DNA of 64,000 nt from Hyphomonas sp. (GTDB taxonomy: Bacteria > Pseudomonadota > Alphaproteobacteria > Caulobacterales > Hyphomonadaceae): assembly GCA_013791775.1 (NCBI GenBank), contig VMTE01000051.1, forward strand, positions 32,260-96,259, in the 5' to 3' direction. The first letter of the stretch is position 1. The number at the start of each line of letters is the position of its first letter. The notes under the pieces were generated by a model. That model had not been told where the DNA came from. It saw only the letters and a program-made list of their open reading frames with translations, and did no database searches. The position numbers and the translations under genes were made by a program. Of this stretch, positions 5,887 through 50,243 are shown piece after piece.

Positions 5887-8067
5887 ATGAGGAACCCACA
5901 TTTGCGCGCCGTTCTAATTTCCCTCACCGCCCTCGCCCTTGCTGCCTGTGCAACAGGCCCAGACCCGGAGACAACCGTGACCGCTGAAACCCAGGCTGAA
6001 ACGGCCGCTTACGACGAAACGGCAGACCTCTGGCTGGAAGAGGTCGAGGGCGCAGACGCGCTCGCCTGGGTCAATGCGCAGAACACGCGCACGCTGGCCG
6101 AGCTGGAAGCCGATCCGCGCTATGCGGGTTACGAGGCGGCGGCGCTTGAGGTGCTGAATTCCAGCGAGCGCATCCCGTACGGCAATGTGCGCGACGGCCT
6201 CGTGTACAATTTCTGGCAGGATTCGGTGAACGTGCGCGGCCTGTGGCGCCGCACGACACTGGCGAGCTACGCGGCCGATGCGCCGGACTGGGAGACGATC
6301 CTCGATATCGACAAGCTCGCCGCCGATGAAGGCAAGAACTGGGTTTACAAGGGCGCCGACTGTTTCCGGCCCAAGGCGGGCGGCAAGTACAGCTGTCTCC
6401 TGTCGCTGTCGGATGGCGGCAAGGACGCGGTGATCAACCGCGAGTTCGACATCGAGACGAAATCGTTCGTGGACGGCGGGTTTGTCACGGCAGAGGCCAA
6501 GCAGGGTCTCGCCTGGGCGGGGCCGGACACGTTGCTGATCGCCACCAACTGGGGCGAGGGTACGCTGACGGAGTCCGGCTATCCGTTCATCGTCAAGCGC
6601 TGGCAGCGCGGCACGCCGGTGGAGAGCGCCGAAGAGGTGATACGCGGCACCGCCACGGATGTCGGCGTCTGGCCGATGACCATGAAACTGGAAGACGGCC
6701 GCATTCTGCAGGGCGCGGTGCAGGCCGAGACCTTCTTCACCTCGAAATACTTCTGGTTCCCGGAAGGCGAAACCGGGGCGGTGCAATGGCCGCTGCCGCT
6801 GAAAGCGTCGCCGAAGGGCATCTACAAGGGCCAGTTCCTGTTCACGCTGGAGCAGGACTGGACACCCGACGGGCAGGACGCGTTCAAGGCGGGCGATCTT
6901 GTCGCGTTCGAACTCGACGCCTTCCTGACCACGCGCGCGCTGCCGCCGGTCAGCCTCGTCTTCCGGCCGTCGGCCACGCAGGCCGTTGACGGCGTCGCCG
7001 TCGCGAAAGGGGCCGCCCTGCTGGCGATCAGCGACAATGTCGTGGGCAAGGTGTTGCGGCTCGAGCCTTCGGACGGCGGCTGGACCACCGCGCCAATCAC
7101 CCTGCCGGGCTCCGGCCAGGTCGGGATTGCCTTCGCGGACCAGGACGAAACGGCGGTGTTCCTCAACTACGAGGACTTCCTGACGCCGGATTCGCTGCTG
7201 AGCTATGACATCACGACCGGTGACGCGGCGACCCTCAAGAGCCTGCCGGCGAAGTTCGATACCGAAGGCCTGAAGGTCGAGCAGCACTTTGCGACCTCGA
7301 AGGACGGCACGCAGGTGCCCTACTTCATCGTTCACCGCGAAGACATGAAGCTCGACGCGGCGACGCCGACCCTGCTCTATGGGTATGGCGGGTTCCAGGT
7401 GTCGATGACGCCGGGCTACAGCCCGGTCACCGGCCGGCTCTGGCTGGAGCAGGGCGGGGTCTATGTGCTGGCCAATATCCGGGGCGGCGGGGAGTTCGGA
7501 CCGAACTGGCACCAGGCGGGCCTCAAGCTGAACCGCCAGCGCATCTATGATGACTTCATTGCGGTCGGCGAAGACCTCGTGGCGCGCAAGATCACAAGCC
7601 CTGAACATCTCGGCATCATGGGCGGCTCGAATGGCGGCCTGCTGATGGGCGTGATGCTGAACCAGCGGCCGGACCTCTGGAACGCCGTCGTCGTTCAGGT
7701 GCCGCTGCTCGACATGCTGCGCTACCACCTGTTGCTGGCGGGCGCCTCATGGGTCGGCGAGTATGGCTCGCCCGACATTGCCGAGGAGCGCGCTTTCCTC
7801 GAGACAATCTCGCCCTACCAGAACTTCGATGCGTCGAAGCCGTACCCCGTGCCGTTCTTCGTCACCTCGACCAAGGATGACCGGGTGCACCCGGGCCATG
7901 CCCGCAAGATGGCGAAACGCTTCGAAGAGGCCGGCCTGCCGTTCCTGTATTTCGAGAACACCGATGGCGGCCACGCGGCCGCCGCCGATCAGACGGCCCG
8001 CGCCAAACGCTCGGCGCTGGAATACACCTACCTCGCCCGGCAACTGTTTCCGAAAACTGGAAACTAG
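5887..8067 (+). CDS. S9A prolyl oligopeptidase-family serine peptidase, lipoprotein
   Basis: Predicted to hydrolyse short peptides, usually after proline, outside the cytoplasmic membrane. A lipoprotein signal ends in LALAAC-A at about residues 16-21. Residues 45-430 form the beta-propeller that gates access to the active site. The C-terminal alpha/beta-hydrolase domain holds the nucleophile Ser581 in GGSNGGLLMG, the Asp in TSTKDDRVHP (664/665) and the His696 in TDGGHAAAAD. 726 aa is the usual length of bacterial S9A enzymes. It stands alone between an exported protein and a GNAT gene, both in the same direction, so it may be read with either. Confidence 0.93.
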   Translation: MRNPHLRAVLISLTALALAACATGPDPETTVTAETQAETAAYDETADLWLEEVEGADALAWVNAQNTRTLAELEADPRYAGYEAAALEVLNSSERIPYGNVRDGLVYNFWQDSVNVRGLWRRTTLASYAADAPDWETILDIDKLAADEGKNWVYKGADCFRPKAGGKYSCLLSLSDGGKDAVINREFDIETKSFVDGGFVTAEAKQGLAWAGPDTLLIATNWGEGTLTESGYPFIVKRWQRGTPVESAEEVIRGTATDVGVWPMTMKLEDGRILQGAVQAETFFTSKYFWFPEGETGAVQWPLPLKASPKGIYKGQFLFTLEQDWTPDGQDAFKAGDLVAFELDAFLTTRALPPVSLVFRPSATQAVDGVAVAKGAALLAISDNVVGKVLRLEPSDGGWTTAPITLPGSGQVGIAFADQDETAVFLNYEDFLTPDSLLSYDITTGDAATLKSLPAKFDTEGLKVEQHFATSKDGTQVPYFIVHREDMKLDAATPTLLYGYGGFQVSMTPGYSPVTGRLWLEQGGVYVLANIRGGGEFGPNWHQAGLKLNRQRIYDDFIAVGEDLVARKITSPEHLGIMGGSNGGLLMGVMLNQRPDLWNAVVVQVPLLDMLRYHLLLAGASWVGEYGSPDIAEERAFLETISPYQNFDASKPYPVPFFVTSTKDDRVHPGHARKMAKRFEEAGLPFLYFENTDGGHAAAADQTARAKRSALEYTYLARQLFPKTGN

Positions 8068-37054: not shown

Positions 37055-37936
37055 TCAGTGATGCCTTTCCTGCACCACGAACAATTGAACTCCGAAAACA
37101 TTCGAAGCGAATTCTGACACTTTTGAGAGCTGTTCGAACGGCTTCTTCGAAGAAGAAATCGAACGCCTAAGTGATGTAAGAAGTTCGTCATACCTTAGTC
37201 GAATCGGTCGAAACACTCCGCGGGTCGAAGTGACGGATTGGATCAAACCTTCTGAGTACCTATCATATGCGCGAAGGACGCTTTTGTCCTGATCCGACAT
37301 CTTCTCTGCCGCCACCGAAAACGCTTCAAGCAGGGAATTTACGAAATGTTCGTCGAGAGCTCGTCCGGCTACTTCCAAGGTTTGTCTGAAATACGATTCC
37401 AGATTTTCGATGTCTAGGTATTCAACTTCTCTTGGTTCGGAGCATACGTAGACGCGATGCTTCGCCAAGGTGCAATGGTGTTTCCCCGGTTGGAGAGCGC
37501 CGATAGTGCGGGGCCTCACAAATCTGGATTCTTGTGCAACCGAGTTGTTTCTAAAAGCGGCGTCGAGTTCTTCATGTGTGTGAAACCTAGGAGCAGCGTA
37601 GAAAACTTCACTTCCGGCTTGATCAAGGGAAAGCAACATATCGTGTTGTTTGGAGTGACGTGAATCCATCAACGGAAATCTGTAAAATGGAACGTTTATT
37701 GGAAGGTGGTGAGTCTTGATCTCTGCGCACGACCTCCTTAGCATTTTGTGAGATAGTTTAAATTGTAAGAAAATCGGAAACGTGGGATCTCCGAGTTTCA
37801 GATCATATCCCCCGCCCTCTTTCCCCTCTTGAAGGAGGGATGGAAAGACGGGAGCAGTAGCTAACCCGGGAAATCGTGTGACAATTTCATTGGTCAGCGC
37901 AAAGCCATACGAGAACTCCGAAATGTCCGGCGCCAA
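37055..37936 (-). CDS. AT-rich gene: uncharacterised protein with D-x12-QxK (PD-(D/E)xK-like) pattern
   Basis: 293 aa, base composition clearly AT-richer than its neighbours, a sign of transfer. It starts at a TTG (37936) behind a GGGGGA sequence, with a stop four to five codons further up. Residues 3-60 (DISEFSYGFALTNEI, FPSLLQEGKEGGGYDLKL, FLQFKLS) contain D45-x12-Q58-x-K60, the spacing of a PD-(D/E)xK nuclease core in which Gln replaces Glu, and E38 upstream. The middle has HSKQHDMLLSLDQAGSEVFYAAPRFHTHEEL. No partner gene is adjacent. Family function is unknown to me; nuclease activity and a defence role are inference from motif and context. Confidence 0.6.
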   Translation of the reverse strand: MAPDISEFSYGFALTNEIVTRFPGLATAPVFPSLLQEGKEGGGYDLKLGDPTFPIFLQFKLSHKMLRRSCAEIKTHHLPINVPFYRFPLMDSRHSKQHDMLLSLDQAGSEVFYAAPRFHTHEELDAAFRNNSVAQESRFVRPRTIGALQPGKHHCTLAKHRVYVCSEPREVEYLDIENLESYFRQTLEVAGRALDEHFVNSLLEAFSVAAEKMSDQDKSVLRAYDRYSEGLIQSVTSTRGVFRPIRLRYDELLTSLRRSISSSKKPFEQLSKVSEFASNVFGVQLFVVQERHH

Positions 37937-38192: not shown

Positions 38193-39434
38193 TCAGTTCT
38201 TCCCGAACTTCCGGTCCCGCCCCGCCATCAGCCTGAGCCGCAGCGCGTTCAGCTTGATGAACCCTTCCGCGTCCTTCTGGTCATAGGCGCCGTGGTCATC
38301 CTCGAAGGTCACGATCTTCTCCGAGTACAGACTATACGGCGACGTCCGTCCGATGAGATAGGCGGTGCCCTTGTAGAGCTTGATCGTCACCTCACCGGTC
38401 ACCCAGCGCTGCGAATGGTCGATCGCGGCCTGCAGCATCTCGCGCTCCGGGCTCCACCAGAAGCCGTTATAGATCATCTCGGCATAGCGCGGCATCAGCT
38501 CGTCCTTGAGATGGCTCTGGCCGCGGTCGAGCGTCGCCTGTTCGATGCCGCGGTGGGCGACCAGCAGAATCGTGCCGCCCGGCGTCTCGTAGATGCCGCG
38601 CGACTTCATGCCGACGAACCGGTTCTCGAGCAGGTCGAGCCGGCCGATGCCATGCTTCTTGCCGTAAGCGTTCAGCGCGGTCAGCAAGGTGGCCGGGCTC
38701 ATCGACTCGCCATTGATCGACACCGCGTCGCCGCGCTCGAAGCCGATCTTGATGATCTCCGCCTTGTCGGGCGCATCTTCCGGCGAAATCGTCCGCATAT
38801 GGACGAATTCAGGCGCCGGCTCGCCGGGGTTCTCGAGAACCTTGCCCTCGGAGGAGGAGTGGAGAAGGTTCGCGTCCACCGAGAAGGGGGCGTCGCCCCG
38901 CTTGTCCTTGGCGATCTCGATGCCGTGTTCCTCGGCGAATTTCAGCAGGTCCGTGCGGGACTTGAAGTTCCAGTCACGCCAGGGCGCGATCACCTTGATG
39001 TCCGGGTTGAGGCCGTAATAGCCAAGCTCGAACCGGACCTGGTCATTCCCCTTGCCGGTGGTGCCGTGGCAGACGGCATCGGCGCCGACCATGTCGGCAA
39101 TCTCGATCTGGCGCTTGGCGATCAGCGGCCGGGCAATCGAGGTGCCGAGCAGATAGACGCCCTCATAGACGGCGTTGGCCCGGAACATCGGGAAGACGAA
39201 ATCGCGCACGAATTCCTCGCGCACGTCCTCGATGAAGATGTTCTCCGGTTTCACCCCGGCGGCCAGCGCCTTCTTGCGGGCGGGCTCCAGCTCTTCGCCC
39301 TGGCCGAGATCGGCTGTAAACGTGACCACCTCGCAGCCGAATTCGACCTGCAGCCACTTGAGGATGATCGACGTATCAAGGCCGCCGGAATAGGCAAGAA
39401 CGACCTTCTTGGGCTTGGCAGCGAGCTTGGACAT
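38193..39434 (-). CDS. argG: Argininosuccinate synthase
   Basis: ATP-dependent ligation of citrulline and aspartate in arginine synthesis. PP-loop ATPase motif [18 protein letters not shown] near the N-terminus, TADLGQGEE, the citrulline/aspartate-binding [17 protein letters not shown] and [16 protein letters not shown], and [23 protein letters not shown]. 413 aa. The start at 39434 ([10 protein letters not shown]) has AGGAA upstream; the frame is open 21 codons further. Confidence 0.97.
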
Positions 39435-39583
39435 GGAATTCCTGACACAATTTTCGGCTGAACGGGGAAAGTGTTGCCTTAAAGTCCCGCCCGTCACCTG
39501 ACAAGGCGGGCCGGTCCGGTGATTCCTGTGGTTTACGCATTCCTAAGCCGTTATAGTGAATTGGATGGATCAAGGTGGCGCTT

Positions 39584-41500
39584 ATGTTGAACGACCCGAT
39601 GGATCACGGACCCGCCCGCAGCCCGGCGCTGCCCGAAAGTCTGCGTCAGGCGATTCGCGAGGCTGAGGCCACCGGCCGCGCCGCCGAGGCGCAGGCCCAG
39701 TCTGCCATGCCGTTCCGGGCCCGGCTTCGCGCCCGCGACGGCGTGCGCCCGCAGCCGACCCTGTCGATCCTGACGCATTCGGGCCCGATCACCGCCGGCC
39801 CGGTCATGCCGGTCGCCATCTCCGAAGTGCGCGCCCTGCGCCGTCCGCCCGCGCCGCCGCCGCCCCGTCCGCCGATCTCGCCCACCACCGCCCTGGTCCC
39901 GGTTCGCCAGCGTCCGCTCACCGTCAGCCAGCCGGCCGGCGCCGGCCGCGATGATAATGATGACGAGGTCCGCCCCGGCTTCTTCAGTCGCCTCAACGAT
40001 TTCTCGCAGTTCGCCTTTGCCGGTCTCGCCGTGCTGGGGCTCGCAGGCCTTTCGGTCATGGCCGCCGAGAACGCGCTCGGCTCCAAGCCGGACACCGACG
40101 AAGGCGACGGCGACCCGATGCTGTCGGCTGCCGGTCTCGAGCCGGCCTTGCCTGCGGCCAGCGTTTCGGCGGCAGCGGTCGATCTGGCATCCACGCCGGC
40201 CGGCGTCGCCGCGACGCCCTGGTTCGATTATCGCGGCACGGCGGATCTCCTCAAGACCCGCATCGCGGCGCTTCAGGCCGAAGAAACCGAAGCCGCCCGT
40301 CTCGCCGCCGCCGGCGCGGACACCTCCGCCGCGCTCGCCATCGCCAATGCCGAAGCGGCCCGCGTCGCGGCGGAACCGGCGCCATCGACCGGCGCGCCGG
40401 CAATCATTGATGCCCGCGTGCGCGACCGTCTCGCCGCCGAGGAAGCGGCCCGAGCCGCCGCCGCCACGGCCGCAATCCAGCTGAAGGCCGACCAGGCTTC
40501 CGCCGCCGCGAAAGTTGAATCCGACCGCCTCGCCGCCGAGGAGGCTGCCCGCGCCGCCGCGCTCGCCGCCCAGCAGCAACGGGTCGCGGACGCCGAAGCC
40601 CAGCGCGCGGCAACGGCCGAAGCCAAGCGCCTCGCCGATCTCGAAGCGAAGAAGCTGGCGGCTGAAGCCGAAGCGCAACGGCTCGCCGACGCCGAAGCCC
40701 TCAAGGCTGCCAAAGCGGCGGAGGCAAAACGCCTCGCCGATCTCGAAGCCAAGCGGGCAGCGGACGCGGAAGCGGCCCGTCTCGCCGCGCTCGAAACCCG
40801 GCGCGTTGCCGAGACAACCGAAGCCCGGCGCCTCGCCGCCGTCGAGGCCCGCCGGCTTGCCGACGCGGAAGCCGCGCGCCTGGCTGCGGTCGCTGTCGCC
40901 GCAACGACCGCCGCCGCGCCTGCACCGCGCGTCTGGTCGAACCCGCCCGGCCGCGCCTCGCTGAAGCCCGCACTTCGCCCGGCGGCGCCGCAACTTGTCG
41001 CCTCGAACGAGGCTGCGGTCTCGCGGCCGGTTCCGCCCTCGCTGAAGGTTTCGCCGCCCGTCGTGCGCCCGCTGACCGGTCCGCGTCCGGTCGATGATTT
41101 CATCGCCGAGCGCGCCGAATACACGGCCGGCCAAGCGCTCGACGTGGCGGGGCTCGATGCCCTCAAGCTGGACTTCCTCGCGCTGGTCGAGACCAGCGCG
41201 GACGGCACCCATCACCAGCTGCTGACACCGGATGGCCGCCCCTTGCTGATCCATTTCGAGCGGACGCTGTCGGTCGACGCGGCCACGGCCAGTGTCCAGG
41301 CCATCGGCTATGCGCCTTCAGCGGACGGCTTCGTCAGCCGGCCGTATATCGAGCCGGTGAATGTCAACGTGAAGGTCATGTGCCGCGATGTGGCCTACGC
41401 CTTCCCGGGCCAGGAGCGGGGGCGTTTCGCCGCTTGTCAGGATGTGGACGGTGTCTGGACCATGGCCCGCGCCTCGATGCTGAACGGCATTCCGATCTGA
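39584..41500 (+). CDS. Ala-rich coiled-coil membrane protein
   Basis: 638 aa. The cytoplasmic N-terminus is basic and Pro-rich (ALRRPPAPPPPRPPISP, residues about 80-100). One transmembrane segment follows (FAFAGLAVLGLAGLSVMA, about 145-163). A long Ala/Glu/Arg/Leu heptad-like coiled coil runs from about 225 to 450 (EAKKLAAEAEAQRLADAEALK). The C-terminal folded part has TSADGTHHQLLTPDGRPLLIHF and a Cys pair (VKVMCRDVAYAF, RFAACQD). This resembles TolA/surface-antigen-type cell-envelope proteins in layout, but no family is assigned. The ATG at 39584 has AAGGTGG upstream. Confidence 0.6.
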   Translation: MLNDPMDHGPARSPALPESLRQAIREAEATGRAAEAQAQSAMPFRARLRARDGVRPQPTLSILTHSGPITAGPVMPVAISEVRALRRPPAPPPPRPPISPTTALVPVRQRPLTVSQPAGAGRDDNDDEVRPGFFSRLNDFSQFAFAGLAVLGLAGLSVMAAENALGSKPDTDEGDGDPMLSAAGLEPALPAASVSAAAVDLASTPAGVAATPWFDYRGTADLLKTRIAALQAEETEAARLAAAGADTSAALAIANAEAARVAAEPAPSTGAPAIIDARVRDRLAAEEAARAAAATAAIQLKADQASAAAKVESDRLAAEEAARAAALAAQQQRVADAEAQRAATAEAKRLADLEAKKLAAEAEAQRLADAEALKAAKAAEAKRLADLEAKRAADAEAARLAALETRRVAETTEARRLAAVEARRLADAEAARLAAVAVAATTAAAPAPRVWSNPPGRASLKPALRPAAPQLVASNEAAVSRPVPPSLKVSPPVVRPLTGPRPVDDFIAERAEYTAGQALDVAGLDALKLDFLALVETSADGTHHQLLTPDGRPLLIHFERTLSVDAATASVQAIGYAPSADGFVSRPYIEPVNVNVKVMCRDVAYAFPGQERGRFAACQDVDGVWTMARASMLNGIPI

Positions 41501-41562
41501 TCGCCGCAAGGGCGCCGACGCTGCCTTGCGCGCGCCCGCAAAGCTTGCGACAGGATGGCGTC

Positions 41563-41904
41563 ATGACGACCGGAACGGCTTACAAACTCCTCAGCGAAGC
41601 GGACTGGGCCGCTGCCCAGACGGCGGGCATCACCGCTTCGGCGGTGGATCTGGCGGACGGCTACGTGCATCTCTCGACGGCCGAACAGGTCCGCGAAACC
41701 GCCCGGCGTTACTTCGCGGGCGCGGGCCGCGTCCGGCTGCTTCGCTTTGAACTCGCGGGTCTCGGCGATGTCCGATGGGAAGCGAGCCGGGGCGGGGATC
41801 TTTTCCCCCATCTTTATGGCCCGCTCGAAATCACCAAGGCAAACGCGGCCTGGTGGCTGTTGCCGGGACCGGACGGCGTGCCGGTCTTCCCGAGGATACT
41901 CTGA
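41563..41904 (+). CDS. DUF952 family protein
   Basis: 113 aa. Matches the DUF952 pattern: AYKLLSEADWAAAQTAGITASAVDLADGYVHLSTAEQVRETARRYFAG, with the YVHLS block, and DLFPHLYGPLEITKANAAWWL. Some relatives bind glutathione-like groups but the role is unknown. The start was placed at 41563. The stop overlaps pyrD by one base (TGATG), so the two are coupled. Confidence 0.85.
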   Translation: MTTGTAYKLLSEADWAAAQTAGITASAVDLADGYVHLSTAEQVRETARRYFAGAGRVRLLRFELAGLGDVRWEASRGGDLFPHLYGPLEITKANAAWWLLPGPDGVPVFPRIL

Positions 41905-42929
41905 TGCTGTCCGACCTCGGCGCGCGTGCCATCCGTATCCTGCCGCCGGAGGCGGCGCATGTGGCGACCGTCCGCCTGCTGAGCAAGGGTATTGGCGCGC
42001 CGGCGCGTATGCCGCAATTGCCACCCGGCCTCGCGGTCACCTTGCCGAAGTCGGGTTTGAAGTTCGCCTCGCCCATCGGGCTGGCCGCCGGGTTCGACAA
42101 GAATTGCGACGTGCCGGACGTGATGGCCCGCTTCGGGTTCGGCTTTGTCGAATGTGGCACGGTGACGCCGAGGCCGCAGCCGGGAAACCCGAAGCCGCGC
42201 CTGTTCCGGCTCGACGAGGACCGCGCGGTCATCAACCGGATGGGTTTCAACAATTTCGGACTGGACTATTTCGTCCGGCGCCTCGCGCGGGTCTCTCATC
42301 TCGTGCCGGTCGGCGCGAATGTCGGCGCCAACAAGGACAGCGAAGACCGGATCGCGGACTATGTCACCGGCATCGAAGCGGTTGCGCCGTATGCAGATTA
42401 TATCACGATCAACATTTCCTCGCCGAACACGCCGGGCCTGCGCGGCTTGCAGGACAAGGCCTCGCTGACCGCGCTGCTGACACGCTGCGGCGCCGCTGAC
42501 CGCAAGGGCAAGCCGGCCTTCCTGAAAGTGGCGCCCGACCTCGACGCGGACGGCATCGCCGATGTCTGCGCGGTCGTGCGCGCCGAAGGTGCCTGGCTGT
42601 CCGGCCTGATCATTTCCAACACGACGCTGGCGCGCCCGGCTTCGTTGCGCAGCGCAGACAAGGGCGAAGCAGGCGGTCTGTCCGGCGCGCCGCTGCTCGG
42701 TCCGTCAACGGACGTTCTTGTCCGGTTCGCCCGCGCGCTGGACGGCGCGTTCGATCTCATCGGCGCGGGCGGCATCGCGTCGGCCGACGACGTTCGCGCC
42801 AAACTCGCGGCGGGCGCGCACGCTGTGCAGCTCTATTCCGCCCTCGTCTACGAAGGCCCGGGCCTTGTGCAGAAGATCAATGCCGAGCTCGGTAACGCCG
42901 CCGCTGGCGACGAGCGTGCATCTCGGTGA
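41904..42929 (+). CDS. pyrD: Dihydroorotate dehydrogenase (quinone), with altered C-terminus
   Basis: Class 2, membrane-bound FMN enzyme of pyrimidine synthesis. Seen: IGLAAGFDKNCDVPDVMARFGFGFVECGTVTPRPQPGNPKPRLFRL, RMGFNNFGLDYF, VPVGANVGANKD, TINISSPNTPGLRGLQDK with catalytic Ser, KVAPDLDADGIADV, SNTTLARP, GGLSGAPL and the phosphate loop GAGGIASADDV. Residues through YEGPGLVQKINAEL are conserved; then the reading frame reads GNAAAGDERASR and stops. Related enzymes continue with about 15 more residues of a final helix (LLxRDGFxSIxEA-like). The replaced tail coincides with the 3' end of an AT-rich antisense TIR gene that overlaps by 53 bases. 341 aa. Confidence 0.95.
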   Translation: MLSDLGARAIRILPPEAAHVATVRLLSKGIGAPARMPQLPPGLAVTLPKSGLKFASPIGLAAGFDKNCDVPDVMARFGFGFVECGTVTPRPQPGNPKPRLFRLDEDRAVINRMGFNNFGLDYFVRRLARVSHLVPVGANVGANKDSEDRIADYVTGIEAVAPYADYITINISSPNTPGLRGLQDKASLTALLTRCGAADRKGKPAFLKVAPDLDADGIADVCAVVRAEGAWLSGLIISNTTLARPASLRSADKGEAGGLSGAPLLGPSTDVLVRFARALDGAFDLIGAGGIASADDVRAKLAAGAHAVQLYSALVYEGPGLVQKINAELGNAAAGDERASR

Positions 42930-43566
42930 TTTGGTGTTGAACTTCCGCGCGGAACGTTTCGCTTGGCTTCGGTAGAAGGTGTTCGTCGAAATACTGAAGG
43001 CCTTTTAGCGGCAAGCCCTTGCGACGGCGATTGTGTCCGCTGTCGGTGAATCCGCCGGTATCTTCAAACCAACGAGGAATTAGCGCAGCAACGCAATTGA
43101 TCAGATCATCTTCGTCATCGCCGTTTGCAATTCTGTAGTTGTCGCTCACCAGTGCAAGCTCGTTTCGAAGCGTCGTGCGCCGCAAAATATCGCTGGAATC
43201 GACTAAGATTACGGGAATTGAGTAGGCGACCGCTGCTAATTCAATCTCGTATCGAACCCAACCACTGTACGATACCTCGCTCCCTATTGGCGCTATCAGC
43301 AGATCGCTGGAGAAGATGCGAGCAGCCATGCGCGACTTCAAAATGAAGTGTTGCAATGAAGGTGGGCCCAAATCCTCTTCAGGGGCGGTTCCTCGTATCG
43401 AGAGGTCCTGAACGTCAGCATATCGTCTTCTGATCGCTTCGATCGTCTTGTCGACAAATCCTTCGTGCCGGTCCCAGATATGAGACACGAATACCCTAGG
43501 CTTGCGGCGTAAAGGCAGGACTTCGAGTCCAAGCTTTCCAGCCGTATATGACCCACCATCGGCCAT
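42877..43566 (-). CDS. Stand-alone TIR-like domain protein (ThsB/MTH538 type)
   Basis: 229 aa, AT-richer than its flanks. The TIR-like fold is shown by RVFVSHIWD (residues 24-32), DLSIRGTAPEEDLG, the segment ILKSRMAARIFSSDLLIAPIGSEVSYSGWVRYEIELAAVAYSIPVILVDSS with W103 and E107 at the likely catalytic-glutamate position. Families with this layout include bacterial anti-phage TIRs such as ThsB, which make a NAD-derived signal. No ThsA-like effector or other TIR partner is nearby. Its 3' end overlaps the truncated pyrD end by 53 bases, and a TATAAT at 43602-43597 with GGGGGGAG upstream gives it its own promoter. NADase or cyclase activity is inference. Confidence 0.75.
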   Translation of the reverse strand: MADGGSYTAGKLGLEVLPLRRKPRVFVSHIWDRHEGFVDKTIEAIRRRYADVQDLSIRGTAPEEDLGPPSLQHFILKSRMAARIFSSDLLIAPIGSEVSYSGWVRYEIELAAVAYSIPVILVDSSDILRRTTLRNELALVSDNYRIANGDDEDDLINCVAALIPRWFEDTGGFTDSGHNRRRKGLPLKGLQYFDEHLLPKPSETFRAEVQHQITEMHARRQRRRYRARH

Positions 43567-43596
43567 AGGCTCCCCCCGTCGCTTTGCGATCTTGAT

Positions 43597-43602
43597 ATTA
43601 TA
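43597..43602 (-). promoter_or_regulatory. -10 element of the TIR gene
   Basis: A perfect TATAAT on the minus strand (43602 to 43597), 31 bases before the start codon in a strongly AT-rich stretch. No convincing -35 hexamer; GGGGGGAG (43572-43579, minus strand) serves as the ribosome-binding site. Confidence 0.45.
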
Positions 43603-43660
43603 TTAACCATACATTCTCCGTTTGCGCGAGCGGATTCCAACCCCGGCCTTAGTGAGCCTT

Positions 43661-44953
43661 CTACTGGGGCGGCGACATCCGTTTGAGCAGGCCGGGCAGC
43701 CAGGCGCCGAGCGCGGCGGCGCGGAAGACATACATCAATAGGAATGCGCCCCAGACGCCGGCATTTCCGAAGGCGGGCCTCAGCACGAGATCGGCGCCGA
43801 TATACAGTATAGCGACAATCACGCCGGAATTGCGCAGCGCCCGGCCCTGCGTGGTACCGATGAACAGGCCGTCGAGCTGCCAGGCCGCCACGCCGAGCAT
43901 CGGCACCGCCGCGCAGTAGGGCAGGTAGGTCAGCGCGGCCGCCCGCGCTTCGGAGTCGCGGATGAAGGTGTCGATCACGAAGGCGCCGCCTGCGAAATAG
44001 GCGAGCGAGAAGGCGGCGCCGAACAGGAGGGCGAATTCGCTGGTCAGCCGCATCGCGCGGACAAGGCCAGCGCGGTCCATCGCGCCCCAGGCTTCGCCGG
44101 CGGCTTTCTCGGCGACGAAGGCAAAGCCGTCGAGCACGAAAGCGGCGACCGTGATGAACTGGAGCAGGACCTGGTTGCCCGCAGTGGCGGCTGTTGAAAT
44201 CAAAGTGCCGGAGCGCACGAACCAGCTGAAAGCGAGCAGCAAGGCCAGTGTACGGATCATGATGTCGCGGTTGGCAGAGAACATGGCGGCGAGGCGCACC
44301 CGGTCGAACAGGCCCTTGCGGGCGCCGAGGCCGGCGCGCACGAGCCATAGTCCGAAGCCGAGGGCGGCCCATTCGGCAATCGCGGTGCCCGCGCCGATCC
44401 CGGCGGGGCCGAGGTTCAGTCCGGCCACGAACCAGATGTCGAGCCCGGCATTGATGGCGTTCAGCACGATCTGGAAGATCAGCATCTGCCCGGTCTTGCC
44501 GGTGCCCAGCATCCAACCAGTAACGGCGATGCCCATCAGGTAAGCGGGCGCGCCCCAGATGCGGGCGTTGAAATAGCCTGCCGCAAGACCTTCCACGCGG
44601 TCCGTTCCGGCAAAGGCAGAGCCCATGGCCAGCTTCAGCAGCGGGGCGGTCAGTATAAGGAGGGTGCCGATGGCGCCGCCGAGGAGAAGCGCACGCACGA
44701 GGATGGCGCGTTTCTCGTCCTCATCCCCGCGCCCGCCGGCCTGTGCAGTGAGGCCGGTGGTGGACATGCGCAGGAAGCCGAAGGCCCAGTAGATGAAGCT
44801 GAACGCAACCGCGGCAATGGCCACGGCGGCGAGGTCTGCCTTGTCGCCGTAGCGGCCCATGACGAGGGTATCGACCAGACCCGTGGTCGCCGTGGCAGCT
44901 TGCGCCGCAACGACGGGAAGGGCGAGGGCGAGGACTTTGCGGCGGGTGAGCAT
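43661..44953 (-). CDS. MATE-family (DinF-like) efflux transporter
   Basis: 430 aa, twelve hydrophobic segments. The DinF-type pattern is visible: LVDTLVMGRYGDKADLAAVAI near helix 1-2, YFNARIWGAPAYLMGIAVTGWMLGTGKTGQMLIFQIVLNAINAGLDIWFVAGLNLGPAGIGAGTAIAEW in the middle, GFAFVAEKAAGEAWG in the second half. Such carriers use Na+ or proton gradients to export drugs or lipid-type substrates. It stands alone with its own short upstream region. Confidence 0.93.
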   Translation of the reverse strand: MLTRRKVLALALPVVAAQAATATTGLVDTLVMGRYGDKADLAAVAIAAVAFSFIYWAFGFLRMSTTGLTAQAGGRGDEDEKRAILVRALLLGGAIGTLLILTAPLLKLAMGSAFAGTDRVEGLAAGYFNARIWGAPAYLMGIAVTGWMLGTGKTGQMLIFQIVLNAINAGLDIWFVAGLNLGPAGIGAGTAIAEWAALGFGLWLVRAGLGARKGLFDRVRLAAMFSANRDIMIRTLALLLAFSWFVRSGTLISTAATAGNQVLLQFITVAAFVLDGFAFVAEKAAGEAWGAMDRAGLVRAMRLTSEFALLFGAAFSLAYFAGGAFVIDTFIRDSEARAAALTYLPYCAAVPMLGVAAWQLDGLFIGTTQGRALRNSGVIVAILYIGADLVLRPAFGNAGVWGAFLLMYVFRAAALGAWLPGLLKRMSPPQ

Positions 44954-44971
44954 GGGGGAAAGCGGTATGCG

Positions 44972-44999
44972 AATCCCCGGGCTTAGTCATCCGGGGATT
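44972..44999 (-). terminator. Hairpin between the alcohol dehydrogenase and MATE genes
   Basis: Perfect 9-bp stem AATCCCCGG (44972-44980) with CCGGGGATT (44991-44999), 10-nt loop. It could end the upstream alcohol dehydrogenase transcript on the minus strand, though no T run follows. Confidence 0.4.
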
Positions 45000-45014
45000 T
45001 CGGCGCCGCGAACG

Positions 45015-45096
45015 GCTCATCCTGACCGAAGTCGAAGGACGAGCCGGGGCGATCAATGCGCTGGTGGCCCATCCTTCGACTTCGGTCAGGATGAGC
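45015..45096. repeat. Perfect 25-bp inverted repeat element
   Basis: Arms at 45015-45039 and 45072-45096 are exact reverse complements with a 32-base spacer. Each arm contains CATCCTGACCGAAGTCGAAG or its complement, a sequence type that recurs between genes in many alphaproteobacteria. It sits between two minus-strand genes with nothing else in the gap. Confidence 0.85.
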
Positions 45097-45115
45097 GTTG
45101 TGTGGCTTGGCGAAC

Positions 45116-46216
45116 CTAATCGAGAACGACAACCTGGCGGGCAACGGTCCCTTTGTTGTCCTTCAGGTTCTGCATCGCGGCGGTGATGCCGTCGAGGCCG
45201 ATGCGGTCGGAGATCAGGTCGTCGAGGTGCAGTTTGCCTTGCCGGTAGAGTTCGACGAAGCGCGGGAAGTCGATCCGGAAACGATTGGAGCCCATGACCG
45301 CGCCTTGCAGGCGTTTTTCGGTGACGAGGAGTTCGATGCCGGGAATCTCGATGTTCACACCGGGCGAGATCATGCCGATGATGGTGGCGACGCCGCGCGG
45401 GCGGAGCATGTGGTAGGCCTGCTCGGCGGTCTTCTTCAGGCCGACGCATTCGAAGGAGTAATGCACGCCGCCCTTGGTGAGCTCCTTAACCGCTTCAATT
45501 GCGTTGACCTTGGAGGGATTGACGACATCGGTGGCGCCGAAGCGGACGGCGAGTTGCAGTTTCTCGTCCGACAGGTCAACCGCGATGATGCGGGATGCGC
45601 CGGCAATCGCCGCGCCGTTGATCGCGGCGAGGCCAACCCCGCCGCAGCCGACGACGGCGACGGTCGAGCCGGGCTCGACCTGGGCGGAGTGGAAGACCGA
45701 GCCGACGCCGGTGATGACACCGCAACCGATCAGGCAGGCGCGGTCCATCGGCATGTCCTTGTCGATGGCGCAGAGGGCGTTCTCGTGAACGAGGATCTGC
45801 TCGGCGAAGGAGGAGAGGTTCAGGAACTGGCCGACCCGTTCCTTGCCGATCGACAGGCGCGGCGCTTCGTCCGGCCCGCGCTTGAACTGCGCGCCGTTGA
45901 CCGTGTGGCAGACCGACATGTGGCCGGTGAGGCAGTATTCGCAGACGCCGCAGAAGGGCGAGAGGATGGAGATGACATGGTCGCCCGGCTTCACGGCGGT
46001 GACCATCGAGCCGACCTGCTCGACCACGCCGGCGCTCTCGTGGCCGAGGATGACCGGCATTTCGGCCGGGAAGTTGCCGTCCCAGAAGTGCACGTCCGAA
46101 TGGCAGACGCCGATGGCCTTGAGGCGCACGAGCACTTCGCGCGGGCCGGGCTTGGAGATGGTGACCTCCTCGATCGTCAGAGGCTTGTTGGCCTCGCGCA
46201 TCACGGCAGCTTTCAT
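45116..46216 (-). CDS. Zinc-dependent alcohol dehydrogenase (MDR family)
   Basis: 366 aa NAD(P)-dependent dehydrogenase, class III-like. Catalytic Zn residues in GVCHSDVHFWDG and the GHESAGVVEQVG block; structural Zn in CGVCEYCLTGHMSVC; Rossmann VAVVGCGGVGLAAINGAAIAGASRIIAVDLSDEKLQLAVRFGATDVVN. The start at 46216 has GGAGGAAAC upstream; the frame is open 14 codons further. The substrate alcohol or aldehyde is not evident. Confidence 0.94.
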   Translation of the reverse strand: MKAAVMREANKPLTIEEVTISKPGPREVLVRLKAIGVCHSDVHFWDGNFPAEMPVILGHESAGVVEQVGSMVTAVKPGDHVISILSPFCGVCEYCLTGHMSVCHTVNGAQFKRGPDEAPRLSIGKERVGQFLNLSSFAEQILVHENALCAIDKDMPMDRACLIGCGVITGVGSVFHSAQVEPGSTVAVVGCGGVGLAAINGAAIAGASRIIAVDLSDEKLQLAVRFGATDVVNPSKVNAIEAVKELTKGGVHYSFECVGLKKTAEQAYHMLRPRGVATIIGMISPGVNIEIPGIELLVTEKRLQGAVMGSNRFRIDFPRFVELYRQGKLHLDDLISDRIGLDGITAAMQNLKDNKGTVARQVVVLD

Positions 46217-46303
46217 GGCGTGTTTCCTCCGGGTTGTGTTTCGGGGAGTGTCGCGCAAGGCCGGGCGTTTGGCCAGACTGACGCGGCGGCAGTGCGGGAG
46301 ATA

Positions 46304-47326
46304 TCAGCCGGTCCAGGCGATGTTCAGGAATATGTGGCCGGTGACCATGGCGATGATGAGCAAAAGCAGGCCGCCCCAGACCACCATGATCGCGGTGGTG
46401 ATGCGCCACCGCTCGGGCGGAAGGCCCTGGATCAGGAAGGCGGCGACGCCGGCGATGTTGATGCAGACGAGGTTCGTCGCAAACAGGAACAGACCGCGCA
46501 GGGCAAGTTCGAACTCACCGTGGGAAAAATAGAGGCCTGCAGCTGCGAGAGGCGGCACCAGCGCCACGGCGATCATCACCCCCACCAGCGAGGCCCCGGA
46601 GCCTTTGTTGAGGGCAAGCACACCGGCCATGCCGGAGGCCAGCGCGAGGGCAATGTCGGCGAGGTGGACGACGGTGCGGTTGTACAGCTCCGGCGCGCGG
46701 GGATCGAAATCGATCAGGAGTCCCAGCAGGACCGTGAAGACGAGTATGCTGACGACGCCGGCCGCCAGCGTCCGGATGGCCTTCAGCCCCAGTGTCCGGC
46801 TTCCGACCGTCGCCGAGAGGGCGAGCGCCAGTGTCGGAGACAGGAGCGGGGCAATGACCATTGCGCCGACCACGATGGCCACTTGCCCGCTCCGCATGCC
46901 GAGGGCGGCGATCAGGGCCGACAGGACGGTGTTGAGCAGGAACTCGAAATTCAGCGACACGGTGCCCGCGATGTCGTCATAGATTTCGTCCGTACTGCGA
47001 CGGTTTCGGCTGAAGAACCGTTCCATCCGCGTCGGCGGCCGGGCCGCCGACTGAATGTCCAGGCCCTCGGCCTGATCCGTGCCGAGCCGGGGAAGGATAG
47101 CTTGAATCTGAAGGACGATGGCCGAGAACTCAGGCGTATCGCAGAACCTGAGCTGCAGCGCGCGCATCAGGTGTTCAACGTTGTGTGAGGAGACAATGCC
47201 CGAGAGCTTCTCAAGACCCTCAGGTGAAGATTCCTGCCAGATCCGGGCGCAATGCGCGCGCAGGATTTTCGTCGCGTCAGGGACGTCGAGGTCCTTCACG
47301 AGCACTTCGATGAGGCGCGATGTCAT
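46304..47326 (-). CDS. DUF389 (TIGR00341-type) membrane protein
   Basis: 340 aa. An N-terminal soluble part (MTSRLIEVLVKDLD, residues 1-110) precedes six hydrophobic segments with family sequence NFEFLLNTVLSALIAALGMRSGQVAIVVGAMVIAPLLSPTLALALS and FDPRAPELYNRTV, HLADIALALASGMAGVLALNKGSGASLVGVMIAVALVPPLAAAGL. Role unknown. The start was placed at 47326. A 54-codon ORF ends 5 bases upstream, in the same direction. Confidence 0.88.
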   Translation of the reverse strand: MTSRLIEVLVKDLDVPDATKILRAHCARIWQESSPEGLEKLSGIVSSHNVEHLMRALQLRFCDTPEFSAIVLQIQAILPRLGTDQAEGLDIQSAARPPTRMERFFSRNRRSTDEIYDDIAGTVSLNFEFLLNTVLSALIAALGMRSGQVAIVVGAMVIAPLLSPTLALALSATVGSRTLGLKAIRTLAAGVVSILVFTVLLGLLIDFDPRAPELYNRTVVHLADIALALASGMAGVLALNKGSGASLVGVMIAVALVPPLAAAGLYFSHGEFELALRGLFLFATNLVCINIAGVAAFLIQGLPPERWRITTAIMVVWGGLLLLIIAMVTGHIFLNIAWTG

Positions 47327-47330
47327 GGCT

Positions 47331-47495
47331 TCAGTCCGCCATCGCGTACGGCGCGTCGCGGGTCGCGTCGTCGGCGGGGAAGAGGCGTTCGAGGTGCAGG
47401 TCACGGACGGTGACGTCTTCGCTGGTGCCGAAATGGGTCATGGTGCAGAGGAAGCTCAGCTGGCCGCCGGGCGCAATACTGATCTGGTACGTCAT
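47331..47495 (-). CDS. Possible small protein (54 aa)
   Basis: TYQISIAPGGQLSFLCTM followed by HFGTSEDVTVRDLHLERLFPADD, ending 5 bases before the DUF389 start. AAAGGGA lies upstream of the ATG. Composition is protein-like and there is no better reading frame, but nothing identifies it; it may be a small regulator or spurious. Confidence 0.45.
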   Translation of the reverse strand: MTYQISIAPGGQLSFLCTMTHFGTSEDVTVRDLHLERLFPADDATRDAPYAMAD

Positions 47496-47671
47496 CGACT
47501 CGTCCCTTTCCGTTGCCACGGGATTCGGGCTCAACACGGTTCCAAATGCCGGGCTGCTGATCGCCGACCCCATCCGCGTGCTCGCCAGCGGCGCGCTGAG
47601 ACCGCCCCCTGATCCCCGCCTGAACGGAGACCTCGCCGCCATTGCCGGCAAATGGCGGCGCAGGTCGCGTT

Positions 47672-49252
47672 TTACTCCGCGGGCGGAGCCGGGACCAGAC
47701 CCAGGGCGCGGCCCATGACGTGGAAGATCTCGTTCTGCTCGATCACGCCGCTGATCAGGTTGGCGCCGGGGCCCGAGGCGAAGGCGGCCACATCTTCGCC
47801 GCCATGGGTTTCCGAATACATCGGCACGAGGGCGGGCTGGCGGAAGTCTGGTGCCAGCGTGTCGATGCCGGTCAGGTCCTGGCGGGCGCAGTCGAGAACG
47901 TCCTTGCCGTCCTTGTCCTTGCCGGTGACACGGCAGGCGCCGGGGCCGTTGGCATAGCCGAGTGTGGTGTAGGGCAGGCCGTCGGCGCCGTCCGAGCCGC
48001 CTTCGCCGCCCTTGCCGGAAACCGACAGGCCGAGGATCGGATTGCCGCGCTGGGCATAGCCGGCGATCGACAACGTGTGCGAATGGTCCGCCGTGACGAT
48101 GATCAGGGTGTCTTCCGCATTCGTCATTTCGAGCGCGGCGGCGACGGCGGCGTCGAAGGCCATGGCGTCTTCCAGCGCGCGGATCGCGTTGCCGGCATGG
48201 TGGGCGTGGTCGATGCGCCCGCCTTCGATCATCAGGACGTAGCCGTCTTCATCGCGCGACAGGCGCGTGATCGCGGCTTTGGTCATCTCGGCCAGCGACG
48301 GTTCGCCCGCCTTGTCCTTGTCGCGGTCAAGTTCGTATTGCATGTGCGATGGCTCGAACAGGCCGAGCAGCTTGACGTCGGTGTTGAAATCGACGGCGTC
48401 GAAGCCCGCCTTGTCGAACACGAAGGTGTGGTCAGGGGATTTCGCGGACCACTCTTCGATGAGATTGCGGCCGTCGGCGCGTTCGCCTTTCGCATCCGCA
48501 TATTCCGGGTCCACCGTTTCTGCGGGAAGGAATTTCGAGCGGCCGCCGCCGAGCGCGATGTCGAGGCTGCCGGCCGGCCACTCGATCAGCTGGCGCGCGA
48601 TGTCCTTGCAGGTGTCGGAGGAGGCGCCGCGCATGTTGGCGTCGCTCTCCCAGTCGCGGTGTGGGATGTGGGCGTAGGTCGAGGCAGGGGTCGCATGGGT
48701 GAAGCGTGTGGTGGTGACAACCCCGGTGGCGAGGCCGGCGCGGGCGGCTATCTCGAACAGGGATTCGGTCTCGTTGCCCGGCAGGCTGGCACAGTTGCCA
48801 TAGTTGATGTCGCTGGTGACGCCGAGCACGCCGGAGCGGGTCTTGACGCCGGCGGTCATGGCGGTGGCGGTGCCGGCCGAGTCCGGGATCTGGAAATCAT
48901 GGCTGTAGGTCTTCGAAAGCGCCGACCAGGGCAGGGTGTCCATCGCGAGAACGTGGCTCTCGCCGTCTTCGCCGGCATACTGGCCGGCATAGATGCGCGT
49001 CGCGGTGATGGTCGAGATGCCCATGCCGTCGCCGATGAACAGGATCACGTTCTTTGCCGGCTTGAGGCCGCGGGCCTCAATGCGGCCTTCGACGGCGGCG
49101 GCGGCTTTCACGTAATAGGTATCTGCGGCTTGTTTTGGCAGGACCGATTCGCGCGCGGCGGAAACGGCGGCGTCCTGGGCGACCGGGGCGGGTTCGGGCG
49201 CCACGGTGCAGGCGGCAAGAACGGCGAGGCTGGCGACGAGGGCGAGACGCAT
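47672..49252 (-). CDS. Alkaline phosphatase (PhoA family), lipoprotein
   Basis: 526 aa. A lipoprotein signal ends in LAVLAAC-T (cysteine about residue 15). The catalytic region is seen as NVILFIGDGMGISTITATRI (metal-site Asp), SHDFQIPDSAGTATAMTAGVKTRSGVLGV with the nucleophile Ser in DSAGTATAM, VLMIEGGRIDHAHHAGN and IIVTADHSHTLSI, which supplies Zn/Mg ligands, and THGGEDVAAFASGPG close to the end. It hydrolyses phosphate monoesters in the periplasm. No Pho box could be confirmed upstream. Confidence 0.96.
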   Translation of the reverse strand: MRLALVASLAVLAACTVAPEPAPVAQDAAVSAARESVLPKQAADTYYVKAAAAVEGRIEARGLKPAKNVILFIGDGMGISTITATRIYAGQYAGEDGESHVLAMDTLPWSALSKTYSHDFQIPDSAGTATAMTAGVKTRSGVLGVTSDINYGNCASLPGNETESLFEIAARAGLATGVVTTTRFTHATPASTYAHIPHRDWESDANMRGASSDTCKDIARQLIEWPAGSLDIALGGGRSKFLPAETVDPEYADAKGERADGRNLIEEWSAKSPDHTFVFDKAGFDAVDFNTDVKLLGLFEPSHMQYELDRDKDKAGEPSLAEMTKAAITRLSRDEDGYVLMIEGGRIDHAHHAGNAIRALEDAMAFDAAVAAALEMTNAEDTLIIVTADHSHTLSIAGYAQRGNPILGLSVSGKGGEGGSDGADGLPYTTLGYANGPGACRVTGKDKDGKDVLDCARQDLTGIDTLAPDFRQPALVPMYSETHGGEDVAAFASGPGANLISGVIEQNEIFHVMGRALGLVPAPPAE

Positions 49253-49316
49253 GGGCGGGGCTCCGGACTGAGTTCAATCCGCCTCTCCTAACCCGGTTTT
49301 GTGACAGTTGCGACCC

Positions 49317-50243
49317 TCAGACGAGTCCGGTCGGGCGGCCCTTTCGCCGCTGCGCCATCCAGACGGCCAGGAGGATCGCGCCGGCGCCGGCCAGCTGGAT
49401 CGCCGTCAGCGGTTCGTCGAAGACGCGCCAGGAAATGACAGCTGCCACCACCGGCTGGGCCAGGACCAGGATGCCGGCGATGGCGGTATCGGTCGATCCG
49501 AGGCCGGAGATGATCAGGCCCTGTCCGGCGACCTGCACGATCAGGGTCAGCGCCAGCGGAACTGCGAAACCCGACAGCGTGGCCGGCAGGTACGCTTCGC
49601 CTGACCCCCAGACGACGAAGAAGGCGAGGGCGGTCTCGAACACGCTGAGCCAGAACATGGCTTCAAGGCCGCCGAGCGTGCGGCGGGCAAGTTTCGAGAA
49701 CAGCATGTAGAAGGACACGAACACGGCAGCAGCGAGCGCGAAAAGGTCGCCGCGCAGCGCGCCGGCCTGCAAGGTCTGCCCGCCGAGGGACAGAGCCGCA
49801 GCGCCGAGGATGGCCAGCACGGCGGCCATCGCCCAGTTGAGACCGGGCCGTTCCTTGAGGAAGGCCCAGGCGGTGAGGCCGACGAGGACGTTGCCGAGGT
49901 TGACGATGAAGGTGGCGTTCGACACGCTCGTCATCGTCAGGCTCCAGTGCCAGAGCGTCATGTCGAGCGTGAAGAAGACGGCGGCCAGGAAGACCGCGCC
50001 ATTCGGCTTGCGCGGCAGGCGCCGGTCGACCAGCAGGACCAGGACCAGCAGTACCGGCACGGCAAACAGGTAGCGCCAGAAGGCAATCGCCTGCGGCCCG
50101 AGATCGTCCAGGCCGAGGCGCAGGCCGATCGGCGCAAAGCCGAGCGCGATGCCGCCGCCGAGCACCATCAGCGGTCCGAGCCAGGCGGGCGCCTTTGCAA
50201 CAGGGAGCGGGGCAGCCGCGGGCGCCGGAGTGAGGTTTGTCAT
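49317..50243 (-). CDS. EamA/DMT-family transporter
   Basis: 308 aa, ten hydrophobic segments in two five-helix halves, as in the drug/metabolite transporter family: GGGIALGFAPIGLRLGLDDLGPQAIAFWRYLFAVPVLL, VFFTLDMTLWHWSLTMTSVSNATFIVNLGNVLVGLTAWAFLKERPGLNW and, in the second half, FYMLFSKLARRTLGGLEAMF, AGILVLAQPVVAAVISWRVFDEPL. Exports metabolites of unknown type. Its start overlaps the gluQ stop by 4 bases. Confidence 0.9.
   Translation of the reverse strand: MTNLTPAPAAAPLPVAKAPAWLGPLMVLGGGIALGFAPIGLRLGLDDLGPQAIAFWRYLFAVPVLLVLVLLVDRRLPRKPNGAVFLAAVFFTLDMTLWHWSLTMTSVSNATFIVNLGNVLVGLTAWAFLKERPGLNWAMAAVLAILGAAALSLGGQTLQAGALRGDLFALAAAVFVSFYMLFSKLARRTLGGLEAMFWLSVFETALAFFVVWGSGEAYLPATLSGFAVPLALTLIVQVAGQGLIISGLGSTDTAIAGILVLAQPVVAAVISWRVFDEPLTAIQLAGAGAILLAVWMAQRRKGRPTGLV

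Follow-up and report, generated by a model that had tools for sequence, protein, structure and literature searches.

A 64,000-nt stretch of DNA from a Hyphomonas species (hereafter the window) contains an AT-rich minus-strand gene, predicted to encode a TIR protein of the ThsB type, that lies against and partly overlaps the 3' end of pyrD, the gene for dihydroorotate dehydrogenase (DHODH). In Thoeris defence, ThsB proteins signal to ThsA, according to two reports (PMC10022894, PMC12578639). The locus raises the questions of how the TIR gene came to stand between pyrD and the neighboring gene for a MATE-family transporter, whether its arrival cost PyrD its last helix, and what such a protein might do without an adjoining ThsA. 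Our best explanation, to which we assign a probability of about 50%, is that a partnerless ThsB-type TIR islet of about 0.78 kb inserted at a pyrD/MATE junction that already lacked the PyrD helix, and that its product is an NADase used in defence.

Single-gene insertion at the pyrD/MATE junction

The nearest relative within the genus, genome G018, has a PyrD that is 90.6% identical to that of the window over the aligned part, but it has no TIR gene. It is colinear with window positions 38193-49993, gaps aside. In this relative, the pyrD block ends at L113:7867 and the MATE block starts at 7852, leaving 14 nt between them, compared with 792 nt in the window. Measured from a pyrD anchor to a MATE anchor, the distance is 863 nt in the window, 85 nt in G018, 130 nt in five relatives and 149 nt in one. 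Because pyrD of G018 runs directly into MATE and the junction is 778 nt shorter, the window carries a single-gene TIR insertion relative to G018, which represents a clean empty site. The TIR gene was found in one of the 42 genus genomes searched, namely the genome to which the window belongs (hereafter the own genome). The insertion that the first-pass annotation had proposed was thus borne out relative to close kin. The features of the locus are as follows.

41904..42929, plus strand: pyrD, dihydroorotate dehydrogenase with a short C-terminus
42877..43566, minus strand: TIR gene, 229 amino acids, comprising the N-terminal 22 residues, the TIR core (about 23-165, with E107 as the presumed catalytic glutamate) and a C-terminal extension (166-229)
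42877..42929: tail-to-tail overlap of pyrD (plus) and the TIR gene (minus), 53 nt
42877..42890, minus strand: final 3-4 codons of the TIR open reading frame (ORF) with its stop, inside native pyrD sequence (homologous pyrD block to 42880; INREL/INAEL common to relatives)
42881..43672: stretch that separates the pyrD and MATE blocks aligned with G018, 792 nt here and 14 nt in G018, net 778 nt
about 42891-43668: the insert itself, G + C content (GC) 0.533
42891..42929, plus strand: pyrD codons contributed by the insert, GNAAAGDERASR and the stop codon
43570..43577, minus strand: ribosome-binding site GGGGGGAG of the TIR gene, a clear match before the ATG
43597..43602, minus strand: TATAAT hexamer 30 nt 5' of the TIR start codon, for which the scan gave no -35 partner
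43661..44953, minus strand: MATE-family transporter, the convergent neighbor of pyrD in 24 of 36 other genus genomes

In the remaining 12 of these 36 genomes, MATE was not found downstream of pyrD within the 1.4-3.5 kb of downstream DNA covered per genome. The overlap between pyrD and MATE is 4-38 nt in the 17 other genus genomes that were measured, and 35 nt in G018.

The TIR ORF starts with ATG and comprises 229 codons with no internal stop. Its description as an AT-rich gene overlapping pyrD by 53 bases was accurate: the GC is 0.535, compared with a window mean of 0.650 (standard deviation 0.040 for 690-bp stretches), and the GC of third codon positions is 0.55, compared with 0.84-0.88 in four neighboring genes (pyrD not among them). 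An equally low GC occurs in 1.7% of the 690-bp stretches of the window, a figure that includes stretches over the TIR gene itself. The gene had also been credited with a TATAAT promoter of its own; the hexamer is present, but a sigma-70 scan yielded no passing -35/-10 pair at the gene (0.3 expected), so that only half of this proposal stands. The stop codon of the TIR ORF is borrowed from antisense pyrD; on our reading of events, the islet would have arrived with no stop codon, and the last 3-4 TIR residues would stem from pyrD.

The unrelated 12-residue end of PyrD, at a place where relatives carry a final helix, was confirmed. In the window, PyrD reads VQKINAEL and then continues with GNAAAGDERASR up to the stop codon. 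PyrD tails were read in G000-G036, that is, 37 of the 42 genus genomes (40 rows with G018, G021 and G001 repeated; G061-G065 left out). The full last helix, mostly of the LLKADGF..LAEAVGKDL kind, is present in 35 of the 37 genomes and absent in the own genome and in G018, where PyrD ends with INRELVPTPAG and retains one more native residue than in the window (INRELV versus INAEL). Since the helix is also missing from the TIR-free G018, its loss is most likely older than the TIR insertion and would have occurred through a deletion in an ancestor common to both genomes. The insertion most likely altered just the final PyrD residues, and the idea that it cost PyrD its last helix was not supported. 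A short tail and the same downstream gene in all close relatives had been put forward as a sign that no insertion took place; one relative, G018, does have the short tail, but it lacks the insertion, and this objection applies only in part.

The proposed deletion would amount to 45 nt, as given by the anchor distance of 85 nt in G018 versus 130 nt in five relatives. By eye, the left break follows EL(V) directly in both G018 and the window, the right break directly precedes a CGACAYCCG common to the two, and the breakpoints of G018 fall within a few nucleotides of those of the window. In G018, the C-terminus of MATE is changed as well (RRVSEPVPG) and runs into antisense pyrD (L113 about 7850-7870). 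In that genome, the 45-nt deletion apparently gave each of the two convergent genes a new end. The solved E. coli DHODH (1f76) aligns through residues 8-332 of 336 with residues 10-327 of the window PyrD. Since the E. coli enzyme stops near this point too, PyrD can probably do without the helix, and the short tail is likely to be harmless.

TIR identity of the inserted gene product

The only families named by sequence profiles for the inserted gene product are ThsB_TIR and TIR_2 (Pfam) and ThsB (PADLOC). Among the 15 members of the homologue alignment, 14 match PF08937 (ThsB_TIR) at E ≤ 0.01. A profile built from 14 homologues, with the TIR protein left out, was run against 596 frames of the window plus 1000 shuffled versions of the TIR protein; it retrieved the TIR protein at E = 2.5e-28, and the next best match was a shuffle at E = 1.7. 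Given this difference with an independent profile, the family match is not due to chance. E107 is invariant in sets of 6, 16 and 19 aligned sequences and sits in the W-x3-E helix. It would be equivalent to E85 of ThsB, as described in PMC10022894. The FxSH and W-x3-E patterns are common to the TIR protein and to short ThsB-type proteins. The structure model is fair and of the alpha/beta type, with a predicted TIR fold and a C-terminal basic helix that has a predicted local distance difference test score (pLDDT) of >90 in the last two blocks; a model from the TIR protein sequence alone reached a pLDDT of 37.3. The fold comparison covered the TIR families that VIA-align lists and hardly reached the C-terminal part. 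Taken together, the data back the ThsB-like identity that had been suggested from the letters of the gene: the Pfam score is borderline, the family profile matches strongly, E107 is invariant and the alpha/beta model is fair.

In a tree, the TIR protein groups with homologues from f3, another family of the order, rather than with short ThsB-type proteins (split support 100/99). Alignments gave 21-31% identity to the f3 proteins over the TIR core, with an AARI..SD..IAP stretch and the W-x3-E helix in common. Judged by its sequence, the TIR protein is a divergent member of the f3 TIR family. A by-eye reading that it also has the f3 C-terminal motif R(F/Y)RGPP found no support, as the match was not above shuffles.

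Solitary occurrence and candidate partners

At E ≤ 1e-15, the TIR family was found in 17 of 60 f3 genomes (in three of the 17, the matched stretch is interrupted by a stop codon, and in one the match is partial). The public genome set contains at least 13 loci, a lower bound that stems from an exact-pattern scan, all in metagenome-assembled genomes titled Hyphomonadaceae, Alphaproteobacteria, Caulobacterales or Terricaulis. With the TIR protein alone as query, no relative was found in plasmids, phages, viral contigs or genome contigs, and three weak relatives each were found in the class and phylum samples, one of them in both; if the own genome is included, the counts are 4 of 385 and 4 of 398. 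A six-row profile was needed to retrieve relatives built like the TIR protein. Neither this profile nor the later family profile confirmed any member on viral contigs, and one f3 family member as query gave no match in plasmids or phages. No literature linking Hyphomonas with a TIR domain was found.

Seventeen loci were fetched with flanks of up to about 9 kb per side where contigs allowed; 16 of them represent the f3 TIR family, and L099 contains a shorter relative. Neighboring genes were called by a simple script, and the TIR frames of L086 and L095 were set by hand. The largest cluster of neighbors, a short-chain dehydrogenase group, occurs at four of the 17 loci, and the other clusters stem mainly from three syntenic loci (L085, L087 and L088). 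Profile searches covered 90 neighbor proteins, that is, 88 of the 151 listed and two longer than 999 amino acids; left out were outer neighbors, all those of L099, proteins of <100 amino acids and other long ones, including a 1014-amino-acid gene product beside the L092 copy. PADLOC at E ≤ 1e-5 reported 22 families for these 90 proteins, none in more than one protein, and ThsA was not among them. Pfam matches were mostly to metabolic and regulatory domains, with a response-regulator domain in three proteins and the others in one or two (25 of 117 families shown). According to PADLOC, single defence-like genes occur at a few loci. Since no partner recurs across the 16 family loci, being alone looks like a trait of the family and not just of the window copy. 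The label "orphan" given to the latter, the neighbors of which are pyrD and MATE, is appropriate. The window copy shares the TIR core, the AARI..SD..IAP stretch, the W-x3-E helix, the lack of a recurrent partner and the scattered location with the f3 family, but it comes from another bacterial family, has a long branch and no R(F/Y)RGPP motif detectable above shuffles, and reads into a housekeeping gene.

Some further genes were seen at related loci. Two of the 16 family loci carry a further defence-like gene nearby: one encodes a large protein that begins like SIR2 (L098:3392-7210, plus strand), presumably the Dsr1 match, and the other a 927-amino-acid protein with a TIR-like start (L094:5563-8346, plus strand). 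Downstream of two short ThsB-type genes of other bacteria (L032:978-1466, minus strand; L033:1896-2420, plus strand) are genes for small proteins with hydrophobic segments, which we take to resemble two-transmembrane SLATT-like partners. A short-ThsB profile found five loci on IMG/VR viral contigs (L078-L082) that encode short ThsB-type TIR proteins 41-57% identical to a bacterial one; these genes are possibly prophage-borne.

The own genome, listed as 100% complete, contains nine PF08937 matches at E ≤ 1, including the window TIR. Seven of the others belong to longer, differently built proteins (G000 contigs 14, 15, 21, 25, 29, 39 and 51), which vary by eye and which we take to include WD40-like repeats, an ABC ATPase, and formylglycine-enzyme-like and ParA-like ends. 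No STALD match exceeded the cut-off in this genome (one match, E = 0.65), and no Macro domain was found at E ≤ 0.01. Thus, as far as these domains indicate, type I or TM-macro Thoeris is not present in the own genome, and the claim that no ThsA-like partner is nearby can be extended genome-wide for these two domains. One SIR2_2 match was over the cut-off: a SIR2-type protein of 506 amino acids (L046:1240-2760, minus strand, G000 contig 47), with SIR2 PDLC04090 as the best PADLOC model (E = 4e-238), which is a candidate NAD-active defence gene. About 5 kb from the TIR gene, the window contains a second AT-rich single gene (37055-37936, minus strand, 293 amino acids) with no Pfam match at E ≤ 0.1 and no PADLOC match at 0.01; it is present in two of 42 genus genomes (the other match 35% identical) and not in G018, and the gene beside it is presumably one for argininosuccinate synthase.

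Two known groups of TIR proteins invite comparison. Like Thoeris ThsB (PF08937, PADLOC ThsB), the window protein is a small protein with a TIR core, a conserved W-x3-E glutamate and an extension, but its Pfam score lies at the edge of the cut-off, it lacks an adjoining ThsA, STALD over the cut-off and Macro at E ≤ 0.01 are missing from the genome, and its signal is hypothetical. With the bacterial TIR NADases AbTir and TcpO, named in PMC10022894 and studied without ThsA, it would share a TIR domain with a catalytic glutamate and NAD+ cleavage that needs no ThsA; the sequence of the window protein is ThsB-like.

Competing explanations and a possible mechanism

Several observations weigh against the explanation favored above. 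The PF08937 score straddles the curated cut-off of 21.2 bits (19.8 bits with hmmscan, 21.4 bits in the frame search). The fold ranking places deoxyribosyltransferase-type enzymes and DNPH1 above TIRs, with TM-scores of just 0.31-0.47 when normalized by query length. A sequence search of solved structures with the TIR protein alone returned no TIR and a single match, sacsin, at E = 0.21, and the same search with the family alignment returned no TIR and no match at 0.01. The branch of the TIR protein is long (3.47), and the tree program marks its placement as unsure. The f3 C-terminal profile (56 positions, filters off) did not list residues 149-229, and shuffles reached 9.4 bits. At the insert, neither a target-site duplication nor a terminal repeat stood out, and only short matches were found. 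An unlinked partner might still be sought among the other TIR genes or in the SIR2 gene, which lies on a different contig, and the proposed order of events is based on two genomes.

Two alternatives were considered, both of which we regard as unlikely. The TIR protein might, like ThsB, make a signal for an effector encoded elsewhere in the genome, such as the SIR2 protein of contig 47; the strong PADLOC match of the latter and the signaling of Thoeris ThsB to ThsA make this conceivable, but STALD over the cut-off and Macro at E ≤ 0.01 are lacking, the listed PADLOC families of the SIR2 protein (25 of 26) do not include ThsA, and the examined family loci have no recurrent partner. Alternatively, the insertion might have come first, in the ancestor shared with G018, removing the PyrD helix, and G018 might later have lost the TIR gene. 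The breakpoints common to both genomes on both sides, as judged by eye, would fit such an order. However, a near-exact deletion would have been needed, G018 contains just 14 nt between the homologous blocks and no remnant of an insert, and it keeps the additional native PyrD residue.

Two further alternatives concern the function of the protein. The TIR gene might be a passenger in decay that lost its 3' end when it inserted, has since diverged and no longer functions, a view that we consider unlikely. Such a gene would be expected to lack its own stop codon and a full promoter and to have a long branch and a C-terminus unlike that of the f3 family, as observed here, but 229 codons are open behind a clear ribosome-binding site, F26, S28, W103 and E107 are kept where drift should strike, and the C-terminal helix is modeled with high pLDDT. 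Quite improbable, in our view, is a nucleotide N-glycosidase or deoxyribosyltransferase-like enzyme of the DNPH1/MilB kind, acting on nucleotides and not on NAD+. The fold similarity to nucleoside deoxyribosyltransferase-type enzymes is high, but TIRs and these enzymes have one fold, so that the Z score of the comparison cannot separate them. Moreover, no Pfam match to nucleoside 2-deoxyribosyltransferase, DNPH1 or MilB families was obtained at E ≤ 1, the sequence profiles name just TIR families, and the FxSH and W-x3-E patterns are those of short ThsB-type proteins.

For the partnerless islet that we favor, events may have been as follows. A 45-nt deletion in the ancestor common with G018 would have removed the dispensable last helix of PyrD. 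Later, in the lineage of the own genome, the AT-rich single-gene islet of about 0.78 kb would have entered the convergent pyrD/MATE junction; pyrD would thereby have gained 12 islet codons (GNAAAGDERASR), replacing whatever short tail stood there, and the TIR gene would have taken the antisense pyrD stop codon. In an infected cell, a cue might free the TIR active site, perhaps via the C-terminal extension. This extension, modeled to end in a basic helix, could act by analogy with ThsB1 and ThsB2, which form a complex with major capsid proteins according to PMC12578639. E107 would then cleave NAD+, and either the loss of NAD+ or an ADP-ribose-type signal would stop the growth of the cell. Because no ThsA partner was found in the own genome or at the examined family loci, the protein most likely acts alone or through an unlinked, non-ThsA effector.

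Altogether, what the first-pass annotation observed was sound, but its interpretation was partly wrong: the insertion and the partnerless TIR family are real, and the shortening of PyrD was probably earlier. The pyrD/MATE locus offers a clear empty-site comparison, and it cautions that a rewritten housekeeping tail adjoining a foreign gene was not necessarily caused by that gene. Tentatively, and with the odds against it, the lineage-restricted ThsB-type TIR family might constitute a one-gene defence without ThsA that spreads between housekeeping genes as bare islets of <1 kb without a recombinase, able to exchange 3' ends between the TIR gene and the adjoining host gene. ThsB is known as a signal maker that works via ThsA; the patchy, partnerless family suggests that ThsB-type TIRs can act alone or via unlinked effectors.
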